A stretch of 64,000 bases of DNA. Source: Actinomycetospora sp. NBRC 106375 (GTDB lineage Bacteria > Actinomycetota > Actinomycetes > Mycobacteriales > Pseudonocardiaceae). The position numbers and the translations under genes were made by a program. Every line of letters starts with the position of its first letter. Position 1 is the first letter of the stretch. Where the stretch lies: contig NZ_BSTS01000004.1 of assembly GCF_030269665.1 (NCBI RefSeq), positions 1 through 64,000 on the forward strand. The letters run 5' to 3'. Below are positions 19,689 through 63,675 of this stretch, piece after piece. Below the pieces are notes generated by a model that saw only the letters and a list, made by a program, of their open reading frames with translations, made no database searches and was not told where the DNA came from.

Positions 19689-19754
19689 GGAGATCACGGG
19701 CGCCTCATCGACCTCGCGGCGGCCCCGACGGGGGACAACGCGCTCCTGATCTCC
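19689..19754. repeat. 66-bp palindromic element A1
   Basis: Begins GGAGATCACGGGCGCCTCAT and ends GCGCTCCTGATCTCC. The termini pair as a long interrupted hairpin. It is one of seven elements sharing these termini in the window. It lies after the biotin carboxylase gene in a convergent gap. Confidence 0.75.
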
Positions 19755-19783: not shown

Positions 19784-19852
19784 GGAGATCAGGAGCACCT
19801 CATCGACCCCGGTGCGACGACCGCCAGCGTGCACCACGCGCCCCTGATCACC
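19784..19852. repeat. 69-bp palindromic element A2
   Basis: Begins GGAGATCAGGAGCACCTCAT and ends GCGCCCCTGATCACC. Same family as A1, 29 bases downstream and in the same orientation, but three bases longer than the other members. Confidence 0.7.
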
Positions 19853-28410: not shown

Positions 28411-28741
28411 GCGGGGCGAGACTAGCATCACACCGGGGCCGGTCAAGGCCTCCGCGTCGCCTCCGGGGCGCGTGGAGAGCGGCGGGCGGGTGCAGGGATC
28501 GCGGGCGGGCCGAGCAGAGATCACGGGCACCTCGCCCTCACTCGCCGCTCGGGCAGTAAGGGTCGCCGGCGGGGCAGAGATCACGAGCACTTCATGCACG
28601 TGCCTCGGCCGTCGGACGTGGACAGCGCACTCCTGATCTCCGGCGCGTGGTGGAGCGTTCACGACTCCTCCCCGACCTCTGGAGATCAAGAGCACCTCAT
28701 CCACGTGCGTCGGCCGTCGGACGTGGACAGCGCACTCCTGA
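28411..28741. other. Intergenic region with repeat elements, no gene
   Basis: After operator c the stretch has no credible ORF. A lone left arm AGAGATCACGGGCACCTC at about 28516 is followed by complete elements B1 and B2. B2 runs into the stop codon of the nuclease-like gene. Confidence 0.6.
28576..28641. repeat. 66-bp palindromic element B1
   Basis: Begins AGAGATCACGAGCACTTCAT and ends GCGCACTCCTGATCTCC. Same family as A1. Its right 34 bases are nearly identical to those of B2, which indicates a recent local duplication. Confidence 0.75.
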
Positions 28742-28746
28742 TCACC
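28681..28746. repeat. 66-bp palindromic element B2
   Basis: Begins GGAGATCAAGAGCACCTCAT and ends GCGCACTCCTGATCACC. It follows B1 after 39 bases. The stop codon of the nuclease-like gene (28742-28744) lies inside its right terminus, so element and gene are physically fused. Confidence 0.75.
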
Positions 28747-29623
28747 GGGACCGTCCGGCCATCTCGCGCCGCCGGGCGTCGACCGCGGCCCGCATGCGCC
28801 GGACGAACTCGGCCGGCCGCCGGAACACGTCGTCCGAGGTGATCGGGATGATCGACCAGCCGCACGACGTGAAGTCGGCAGTGCGGGCGGCGTCGCGGAG
28901 CCACTGCTCGCGGTCGGCGCGGTGCTGATCACCCTGGTACTCGGCCCCGAGCCGGCAGTCCTCCCACGCGAAGTCGAGGCGGCCGACGAACACGCCCCAG
29001 ATGTCCCGGACCTCGAGCTGCGGTGTCGGCGTCAGCCCGGCCCGGCGCATGGTCAGGCGGGCGAGGGTCTCCGGCCGCGACTCGGCCCGGGTGTCGGCGT
29101 CGGCGACCACGGCGGCGAGCCGGCGTCCGCCACGCGGGTTGTCCCGTGCGGCCGGGTAGCTCAGCAGCGACTCCGGGGCGATCCGGAACCGGCGACCGAG
29201 TCCGTCGACGACGGCGACCGCCTCGTCGTGGTCCACCGTGCACGCCAGGTCGAACATCGTGCGCCGCGGCGAGGTCACCGTGACGCCGTCGAACGGCATC
29301 GTCTCGCCCTCGGCGAGGACGTCCTGTCGGAGTCGCACGCCCTCGCGGGCACGCAGGCGGCGCCGTCCCACGACGAGCTCGACGGTCGCGTCCCGCGGCG
29401 CGCAGTCGGCACCGAGGATGTCGGCGGCCGCGTAGCCGCCGACGACGGCGCCGGGAACGGCGAGCGCCGCCGCCGTCGCGCGGCCCCGCAGATCGAGCAC
29501 GGTGCCGGCGGCGACGTAGGTGTCGTAGCCCAGGCGATCGAAGGCGGGGCCGTCGAGCCGGCGCCACGTGGTGGCCCCGGCGCGGACGGCGACGCTGCCA
29601 CGGAAGGGTTGCGAGAGGTCCAT
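28742..29623 (-). CDS. DUF559-type (Vsr-like) endonuclease domain protein
   Basis: 293 residues. The middle (TSPRRTMFDLAC near 120) resembles the AbiEi-like region of actinobacterial DUF559 proteins. The C-terminal part has GRLDFAWEDCRLGAEYQGDQ, WLRDAARTADFTSCGW and an Ile-rich strand, the Vsr/restriction-like fold with the Asp-(x)n-Glu core. The N-terminus lacks an obvious winged helix. Such proteins are annotated as type IV antitoxin-like or very-short-patch-repair-like, without known function. Pairs of 66-bp palindromes flank it on both sides, the left pair touching its stop codon. No cognate toxin is seen. Confidence 0.75.
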   Translation of the reverse strand: MDLSQPFRGSVAVRAGATTWRRLDGPAFDRLGYDTYVAAGTVLDLRGRATAAALAVPGAVVGGYAAADILGADCAPRDATVELVVGRRRLRAREGVRLRQDVLAEGETMPFDGVTVTSPRRTMFDLACTVDHDEAVAVVDGLGRRFRIAPESLLSYPAARDNPRGGRRLAAVVADADTRAESRPETLARLTMRRAGLTPTPQLEVRDIWGVFVGRLDFAWEDCRLGAEYQGDQHRADREQWLRDAARTADFTSCGWSIIPITSDDVFRRPAEFVRRMRAAVDARRREMAGRSR

Positions 29624-29684
29624 ACCGGGTTGGAGGGCCGCGGCGGCCGCACGGTTCCCTCCCCCTGCACGGCCCTCGCCTGCC

Positions 29685-29750
29685 GGTGATCAGGAGAGCG
29701 TCATCGACCTCGACCACCTGTCGGAGGTGGATGGCGCGCTCGTGATCTCC
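29685..29750. repeat. 66-bp palindromic element C1
   Basis: Begins GGTGATCAGGAGAGCGTCAT and ends GCGCTCGTGATCTCC. Inner parts TCATCGACCTCGACC and GGAGGTGGATGG also pair, giving a hairpin that spans most of the element. Confidence 0.75.
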
Positions 29751-29778
29751 GGACCGCGCGACCCGCCGCGGGGCACTC

Positions 29779-29844
29779 GGAGATCAGGAGCGCGCCATCC
29801 ACCCGGCGGGCCCCGCCGAGGTGGACCAGGTGCTCCTGATCTCT
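29779..29844. repeat. 66-bp palindromic element C2
   Basis: Begins GGAGATCAGGAGCGCGCCAT and ends GGTGCTCCTGATCTCT. It follows C1 after 28 bases, so both flanks of the nuclease-like gene carry a tandem pair. Confidence 0.75.
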
Positions 29845-55908: not shown

Positions 55909-55974
55909 CGAGATCAGGAGCGCGGGACACACCCGGCACGGCCGCGCGCGGTGCGTGGCGCGCTCCTGATCTCC
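55909..55974. repeat. 66-bp palindromic element D1
   Basis: Begins CGAGATCAGGAGCGC and ends GCGCGCTCCTGATCTCC; the arms GAGATCAGGAGCGC and GCGCTCCTGATCTC are perfectly complementary. A single element, 26 bases past the stop of the MFS gene, far from the nuclease-like gene: a dispersed copy. Confidence 0.75.
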
Positions 55975-62178: not shown

Positions 62179-62221
62179 TACTGGCTGGTGTCCCTCGCCA
62201 GGTGAGGGATACCAGCCAGTA
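62179..62221. repeat. Palindrome E1, TACTGGCTGG family
   Basis: Arms 62179-62196 and 62204-62221 (18 bp each, one mismatch) around a 7-nt loop GCCAGGT. Left arm TACTGGCTGGTGTCCCTC. First of three copies, located at the broken end of a gene remnant and before the small membrane protein gene. Confidence 0.8.
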
Positions 62222-62586: not shown

Positions 62587-62631
62587 CTACTGGCTGGTAT
62601 CCCTCGCCTGGTGAGGGATACCAGCCAGTAG
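62587..62631. repeat. Palindrome E2, TACTGGCTGG family
   Basis: Perfect 19-bp arms (62587-62605, 62613-62631) around the 7-nt loop GCCTGGT. Left arm CTACTGGCTGGTATCCCTC. It lies between the convergent small membrane protein and nuclease-like genes, so it may also end both transcripts; no T-run follows. Confidence 0.85.
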
Positions 62632-62656: not shown

Positions 62657-63559
62657 TCACGCGGCGGTGACGGCGTCGGCGGCGAGCATGCGGCGCACCA
62701 CGTCGACCAGGTAGCCGGGCGTCTCCTGGAGGTCGTACCAGGACACGCGGATCACCCGCCAACCCCCGATGACGACCTCGTTCTGGCGCAGCCCGTCGCG
62801 CCGGAAGCGGTCGACGTCGCGGTGGAAGGCCCAGCCGTCGATCTCGATCGCGACGCGGTGCTGCGGGAACGCGATGTCGAGGACGACGCGACCGAAGCCC
62901 GGGAGGACCACCGGGAGGTTCGCCGTCCACCCGGTGACGCGAGCCCGCGTGAGGCGGCGGGCGGCATCGCGCTCCGCCTCCGACCGTGCCTCACCCTCGG
63001 CGAGCGCGACCAGCCGGCGCGCGAGCACGACGCCGTGTCGCTGCCCCATCTCCTCGAGCGCCTGGCGCAGCGACTCCACCGCCACGCGGTCCTGCTGGAG
63101 GGCCCGGTCGAGCAGACGGGCGCCTTCGACCAGCCCGAGCGACGTCGCCGCCTCGAGCGCGGCGGCGGCGCGGTGCGCGACCCACACGCCGTCGACCCTG
63201 ACCCGGCCGGAGAGACCGATCGCCCGGCGCACCGTGCGGACCCCGGGAGGCGGGCAGTGCCCTCCGGCCGGTCCCACCGCGATCGCGATCGTCTCCACGG
63301 GGCGGTCGGTGAGGTTCCACCAGACGGCTGCTGCGTGGCCGATGAGGGTGGCCGCGTCGCCCGCCCAGAGCGCGGCGGCACGCAGGGTGGCGCGAGGGGT
63401 CAGGACGTGCGTGGCGGCGAGGTAGACGCGGGGACGGACGGCGAGCCACTCCCCGGACGCGACCCGCCGGTCGATGGCGGCGGGTGACATGCCGAGGTCG
63501 CGGGCCTGGTCGTGGCGGATCAAGCCGTCCTGCGTGCGGACGAGATCGAGGAGCTCCAT
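62657..63559 (-). CDS. DUF559-type (Vsr-like) nuclease with AbiEi-like N-terminus
   Basis: 300 residues. An N-terminal winged helix (LVRTQDGLIRHDQARDLGMS, then AAIDRRVASGEWLAVRPRVY) of the AbiEi antitoxin type is joined to a C-terminal Vsr/DUF559 fold: LDIAFPQHRVAIEIDGWAFH, FRRDGLRQNEVVIGGWRVIRV and a final W. The Asp/Glu pair in DIAF...EIDG fits the restriction-like active site. No AbiEii-type toxin gene is next to it. E2 and E3 palindromes flank it closely on both sides, as the 66-bp elements flank the related gene at 28742. Confidence 0.78.
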   Translation of the reverse strand: MELLDLVRTQDGLIRHDQARDLGMSPAAIDRRVASGEWLAVRPRVYLAATHVLTPRATLRAAALWAGDAATLIGHAAAVWWNLTDRPVETIAIAVGPAGGHCPPPGVRTVRRAIGLSGRVRVDGVWVAHRAAAALEAATSLGLVEGARLLDRALQQDRVAVESLRQALEEMGQRHGVVLARRLVALAEGEARSEAERDAARRLTRARVTGWTANLPVVLPGFGRVVLDIAFPQHRVAIEIDGWAFHRDVDRFRRDGLRQNEVVIGGWRVIRVSWYDLQETPGYLVDVVRRMLAADAVTAA

Positions 63560-63622: not shown

Positions 63623-63675
63623 GCGGTTACTGGCTGGTATCCCTCACTGAGCGAGGGATACCAGCCAGTAACCGC
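63623..63675. repeat. Palindrome E3, TACTGGCTGG family
   Basis: Perfect 23-bp arms (63623-63645, 63653-63675) around the 7-nt loop ACTGAGC. Left arm contains TTACTGGCTGGTATCCCTC. It lies between the start of the nuclease-like gene and the stop of the methionine-synthase-like gene, both on the minus strand. Confidence 0.85.

Follow-up and report, generated by a model that had tools for sequence, protein, structure and literature searches.

A predicted nuclease gene of the soil bacterium Actinomycetospora sp. NBRC 106375 is bracketed by palindromic elements of a dispersed repeat family, termed R1 here, and its relatives are bracketed by palindromes of their own. The gene lies in a stretch of 64,000 nucleotides, referred to as the window. 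There is good support for a pairing between nuclease and palindrome; bracket, pairing with an own palindrome, dispersal, joint variation and cassette replacement at one locus, and the modelled fold were each established computationally. That the enzyme is bracketed by a dispersed palindrome, that its relatives carry their own palindromes, and that both change together points to a nuclease-and-repeat system. The palindromes are probably the dyad target sites of their own homing-type nuclease, which would be replaced together with them as a cassette while the sites multiply genome-wide.

The R1-bracketed gene encodes 293 amino acids on the reverse strand at 28742–29623. Elements B1 (28577–28640) and B2 (28682–28745) lie at its downstream end, and C1 (29686–29749) and C2 (29780–29843) at its upstream end; B1, C1 and C2 were located with a profile and a covariance model, and B2 from the sequence and the profile. 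All four elements that an earlier note on this DNA had placed around the gene were recovered in position, each measuring 64 bp, the length of 66 bp given there including flanking bases. The TGA stop codon (28742–28744) falls within B2, as the same note had observed. Each element matched on both strands at E about 1e-14 to 1e-15 to a profile seeded with these four, and C2, itself among the sequences of the model, was the top-scoring R1 copy genome-wide (76.2 bits). A possible R1 half copy is present beside B1 at 28517–28546 (E 1–2 only; 83% match to the start of B1 over 29 bp). A promoter-like motif, GGAACC-N18-TCCAA, is located within the bracket on the reverse strand (29630–29658). In a motif scan of genus loci against other loci of the same genome, 15 of 18 genus loci had it 34–50 bp upstream of the start, compared with a single occurrence in 164,781 bp of the other loci (both strands). 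We take it to resemble an ECF-sigma promoter. Outside the genus, GGAAC was not enriched upstream of the nucleases (2 of 65 loci; 0–8 of 62–65 in shifted windows). The flanking ORFs presumably encode a P450 and an LLM-type oxidoreductase. An Rfam scan of the window yielded nothing at gathering score, and an NCBIfam search gave no match.

The label "DUF559-type", which the earlier note had given to the gene product, was not upheld by sequence scores but was supported by the structure model. The product scored below the cut-off for both MTES_1575 (32.6 bits vs 38.2) and DUF559 (18.6 vs 20.6) in Pfam, and homologues elsewhere exceed the Pfam cut-off. The structure model (pLDDT 91, pTM 0.87) matched the catalytic domain of I-Bth0305I (3r3p; probability 1.00, TM 0.77 on the target, E 0.034) and, across the greater part of its length, Rv2827c (probability 0.98, TM 0.34, E 0.0099), in a PDB fold search where no match had E < 0.001 and two unrelated mitoribosome chains topped the ranking. 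A profile search of PDB sequences gave none at E 1. On the model, the fold is that of an Rv2827c/AbiEi-like part joined to an I-Bth0305I-like catalytic domain of the EDxHD/Vsr fold. Residues E185, D217, E228, Q230, D232, H234 and D244 are invariant in 12 homologues, which suggests that they form the active site. I-Bth0305I is a homing endonuclease that dimerises on a target of nearly 60 bp, according to a review (PMC3943268). A dimer of an I-Bth0305I-like enzyme would probably need a site of the kind seen here, 64 bp long with conserved arms on either side of an unconstrained centre.

R1 consists of two arms of ~23 bp, GAGATCA(G/C)GAGC...CAC, around a variable centre of ~18 bp. The covariance model placed R1 at 81 or more distinct places in the genome, a copy number far beyond chance. 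The copies A1 (19690–19753), its twin A2 (19785–19851) and D1 (55910–55973), which had been listed before as dispersed copies in the window, were recovered with both profile and covariance model. Another copy was present within 350 bp for 28 of the at least 81 places, and seven pairs were twins spaced 94–105 bp apart. When 43 copies were placed against crude gene calls, 21 were at convergent junctions, 14 at tandem junctions, none at divergent junctions and 8 inside called genes, where in some cases the overlap concerns the gene end only or the gene may be miscalled; the lack of divergent junctions among the 35 intergenic copies had p 0.0035 by base share. The family is nearly confined to Actinomycetospora, with matches in 15 of 18 genomes of the genus and in 3 of 43 others, the latter showing one or two weak matches each.

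The arms of R1 pair in 77.6% of cells; column shuffles gave 79.5%, and 499 of 500 of them equalled or exceeded the observed value. The arms are of two distinguishable kinds, carrying TCAT in one and YTGT or TGGT at the equal place in the other. The orientation likelihood was 2051 against 2020 ± 7 (maximum 2034) for 15 sets with arms re-dealt. This corrects the term "palindrome" in the earlier note, as the R1 arms look like half-sites and not like a maintained stem, and a simple hairpin reading of R1 was rejected because arm pairing is lower than in shuffles. Arms not kept complementary are expected of half-sites in duplex DNA, and judged from its sequence R1 fits a dyad of such half-sites better than a stem under selection.

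Two genome searches revealed six stand-alone genes with the nuclease domain in the same genome, in addition to a nuclease domain in a long fused frame on contig C5. A relative on C1 (245 kb), which matched residues 1–234 only and was missed by the domain search, had no bracket, and a weak 70-residue match on C11 (232 kb) was set aside. Brackets were present at every one of the six stand-alone nucleases, and no two of them share a palindrome: R1, p12, p13 (on C9), p14 (on C11), one on C17, and p11 (on C12). The C12 bracket failed the narrower test (9.8) and passed the wider one (19.7 vs a shuffle maximum of 13.1); the genome search also found p11 on both sides of this gene. The genome-wide palindrome search covered the four families p11, p12, p13 and p14 and detected places beyond the flanking copies for p14 (six), p13 (three) and p11 (one), and 21 places outside the window for p12. 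That the R1 bracket was a chance neighbourhood, as only one paralogue had R1 nearby, proved wrong: the paralogues are bracketed by other palindromes.

The second of these genes in the window, identified by the genome searches and the bracket test, encodes 300 amino acids on the reverse strand at 62657–63559. The 43-bp palindrome p12, located by palindrome search, is found downstream (62588–62630) and upstream (63628–63670) of it, and a third copy lies at 62179–62221. The p12 family is more uniform than R1 and closer to a perfect palindrome: 18-bp arms are fully complementary in 12 of 23 copies, 96.5% of cells pair, and four cells carry changes in both arms, compared with 1.7 in shuffles (21 of 500 shuffles reached this value). 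It is younger-looking than R1. R1 and p12 palindromes adjoin at C4:90122/90269, C3:265224/265371 and C3:329610/329439 in this genome (G000), as if different families used shared landing places.

The near-perfect palindromes of p12, with some double changes, keep a hairpin substrate in play. In that case the nuclease would act on palindrome hairpins or cruciforms and copy them to new sites in the manner of RAYTs with REPs, the biology being the same as in the reading with dyad targets and the substrate different. The dispersed intergenic palindromes, the twins and the gene between copies would all be accommodated, as would the pairing and double changes of p12. We consider this unlikely, as the two kinds of R1 arm show less pairing than shuffles do, and the catalytic fold belongs to enzymes cleaving duplex DNA.

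To assess how general the bracket is, the upstream and downstream flanks of each gene were compared in direct or inverted orientation, with windows shifted along the same loci as controls. Among the loci of the genus and of the genome itself, 22 of 26 were above the 95th and 20 of 26 above the 99th percentile of 302 controls. Among named loci outside the genus, mostly from Geodermatophilaceae and Micromonosporaceae, 43 of 65 exceeded the 95th and 23 of 65 the 99th percentile of 1496 controls, and 21 of these 43 have a downstream match overlapping the stop codon. A draw across the phylum, in which 149 genomes were searched, 46 had the family, and 59 of the 60 stand-alone loci picked were testable, gave 34 of 59 above the 95th percentile of 966 controls. 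With neighbour genes as controls, 34 of 53 nucleases lay beyond the 95th percentile set by 274 genes (p 1.8e-12); within its own locus the nuclease ranked first in 32 of 48 cases vs 9.4 expected. Bracketing palindromes differ in dispersal: of five in G043, from another family of the order, one had nine extra places, two had one and two had none. Outside the genus, palindrome similarity tracked protein identity no better than control DNA did (r 0.45 vs 0.48). Homologues without flanking repeats, which the earlier note had named as evidence against its idea, exist: the bracket was undetected in 4 of 26, 25 of 59 and 22 of 65 loci in the three sets, one of the four in the genus set passing the wider test.

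The locus of the R1-type nuclease has the same neighbours in eight genomes, where the neighbour proteins are 91–98% identical and the nucleases 54–90%. Palindrome arms and nuclease identity varied jointly among these eight genomes at this one locus (Mantel r 0.83, exact p 0.0013), and the correlation persisted given the neighbours (r 0.81, p 0.0015), the neighbours themselves giving r -0.34 against the palindromes; one Mantel row is a frameshifted A. lutea gene whose pieces were joined at the protein level. Between A. chibensis and A. callitridis, identity is 97.8% for the neighbours and 57.6% for the nucleases, and the palindromes differ. A. chibensis and the MAG G004 have nucleases 90% identical and a common palindrome type, and the neighbours of G004 are closest to those of the MAG G008 (96.5%), which has the other type. 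In these two species pairs, 50-column windows outside the unit showed mostly 0.90–1.00 identity (lowest 0.74, beside the unit), compared with 0.32–0.80 inside, and the borders fell a few tens of bases outside each palindrome. The stretch from palindrome to palindrome is replaced as a whole unit in these pairs. Seven of the eight syntenic genomes have a downstream palindrome that begins with the TGA stop codon of the nuclease, the eighth being frameshifted. In A. lutea (L079 / L187), the syntenic nuclease is frameshifted and palindromes persist on both sides.

Copy number largely follows cassette type for two further palindrome types, R2 and R3, counts being matches over both strands and high counts lower bounds. 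R2 is the type at the syntenic locus in G005, G008, G012 and G017, which have 64, 18, 20 and 12 matches, respectively; the next highest were G002 (12, with a much weaker best E) and G000 (11). R3 has at least 128 matches in each of G001, G003, G007, G010, G013, G014, G015 and G016 and 3–19 in the other ten genomes. R3 was built from six genomes, including the low-count G006 (17) and excluding the high-count G014, G015 and G016; its association on the six source genomes is weak (Fisher p 0.043) and partly circular, and R3 copy number is confounded with descent. Repeats also exist where the matching cassette is lacking: G011 has at least 86 R1 matches and another palindrome at its cassette. G009 has 30 R1 matches and only a 36%-identical, unbracketed relative, and G007, G010, G013 and G015 have 16–21 R1 matches each and cassettes of other types. 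Unbracketed homologues and repeats without a matching cassette may be relics of cassette turnover.

On the reading we favour, the gene would encode a homing-type (EDxHD/Vsr-fold) endonuclease, and the palindromes would be its own recognition sites, each a dyad of two ~23-bp half-sites around a variable ~18-bp centre suited to a dimer. The nuclease would bind the palindromes and cut at or near them. Palindrome, nuclease and palindrome would together form a cassette at a fixed locus, swapped as a unit between species, and the target sites would increase in number across the genome, in many cases as twins and much like REP elements with their RAYTs, spreading via break repair or transposition-like copying. 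It is about an even chance that, across the phylum, homing-type nucleases spread or maintain families of long dyad palindromes, each palindrome family having one nuclease, and that their cassettes acquire new specificities and take each other's place at fixed loci.

The palindromes could instead be operators bound by the AbiEi-like part, the nuclease domain being incidental and the dispersed copies regulatory. AbiEi proteins are DNA-binding autoregulators, most of the chain resembles Rv2827c in fold, and the promoter-like motif is within the bracket. This is improbable given copies at both gene ends, often at the stop codon, the conserved nuclease residues, and 35 intergenic R1 copies with 21 between convergent genes and none between divergent ones. 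Least probable of all, the repeats were spread by something else and collect around these genes as passengers, which would suit different families in common intergenic regions (e.g. C4:90122 with 90269) and repeats in genomes without the matching cassette, but is at odds with the gene-matched controls, the separate palindromes of paralogues, the joint variation against the neighbour signal, and the lack of a detected Y1 transposase in the genome.

The interpretation in the earlier note is supported in part: the proposal that the nuclease and its palindromes form a pair analogous to RAYT and REP gained support from the recurrent bracket, the paralogues with their own palindromes and the joint variation at one locus, and movement or maintenance of the repeats by the nuclease is a hypothesis. 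REP/RAYT systems, in the available texts of PMC3733652 and PMC8266576, have dispersed intergenic palindromes, twins, a flanked gene and system-specific repeats where several systems coexist. The R1 system shares the dispersed intergenic palindromes, the twins and the gene flanked by palindromes, and coexisting nucleases likewise have system-specific repeats. It differs in that the nuclease fold is unrelated to Y1/HUH, the elements of 43–66 bp have no conserved GTAG or CGTC tag, and the R1 arms look like half-sites, not a kept stem. GTAG is absent from the R1 consensus on inspection, and the right foot of p12 is GTAG in 10 of 23 copies, hence not conserved. A RAYT in the genome was rejected, as Y1_Tnp (PF01797) gave 0 matches at E 0.001 there, while the same search gave matches in 5 of 14 genomes. 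By analogy, the system is best read as working like a REPtron without a Y1 transposase; as the defining enzyme and tag are absent, it is not classed as a REPtron.

The likeness to the EDxHD homing endonuclease I-Bth0305I lies in the catalytic fold, the target near 60 bp for a dimer (available text of PMC3943268) and gene replacement with sharp borders. The R1 nuclease differs in that no intron or intein was seen around its gene, target-like dyads are on both gene sides and dispersed, and the N-terminal part resembles Rv2827c. MTES_1575 / DUF559 is a Vsr-family domain fused to other domains, and the available text of PMC3710099 that describes it has no occurrence of "palindrom" and gives no repeat association for it. 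The R1 nuclease, with its sub-threshold Pfam matches, resembles these proteins but is stand-alone and bracketed. A gene between repeated ends with small dispersed copies also recalls MITEs and composite transposons; here, however, the ends are complete palindromes that are found on their own as well. Inspection by eye of the sequences beside 43 R1 and 23 p12 copies showed no evident target-site duplication.

Many REP-like repeats have no known enzyme: the available text of PMC3733652 describes CGTC repeats as apparently lacking a dedicated transposase and leaves untagged families open. Here, bracket, copy number and joint variation link an unrelated enzyme class to dispersed palindromes of its own. 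If the phylum-wide reading is true, it would be an independent, non-Y1 origin of REP-like repeats and could explain untagged palindromic repeats of Actinomycetota. As the predicted substrate lies beside each nuclease, specificity could be readable from sequence, and A. chibensis and A. callitridis would be a natural specificity swap. No literature linking these nucleases to dispersed palindromes was found in open-licence papers, the scope of the search.

Two further features of the nuclease loci were observed. The DnaA-box-like sequence TTNTCCACA is present mostly 60–110 bp before the conserved nuclease start in the named loci (L188–L252), in 16 of 65 exactly vs 0 of 760 shifted windows, and in 42 of 65 vs 18 of 760 with one mismatch. 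It may perhaps reflect replication-coupled expression; in the phylum sample its enrichment is slight at most (1 of 59 vs 2 of 978 windows for exact matches, and 8 of 59 vs 51 of 978 when one mismatch is allowed), and so it was left out of the core model. At a second syntenic nuclease locus in the genus, the gene orientation relative to the neighbours in L073–L078 is opposite to that in L071, L072, L082 and L083, which would fit an inversion of the bracketed unit.
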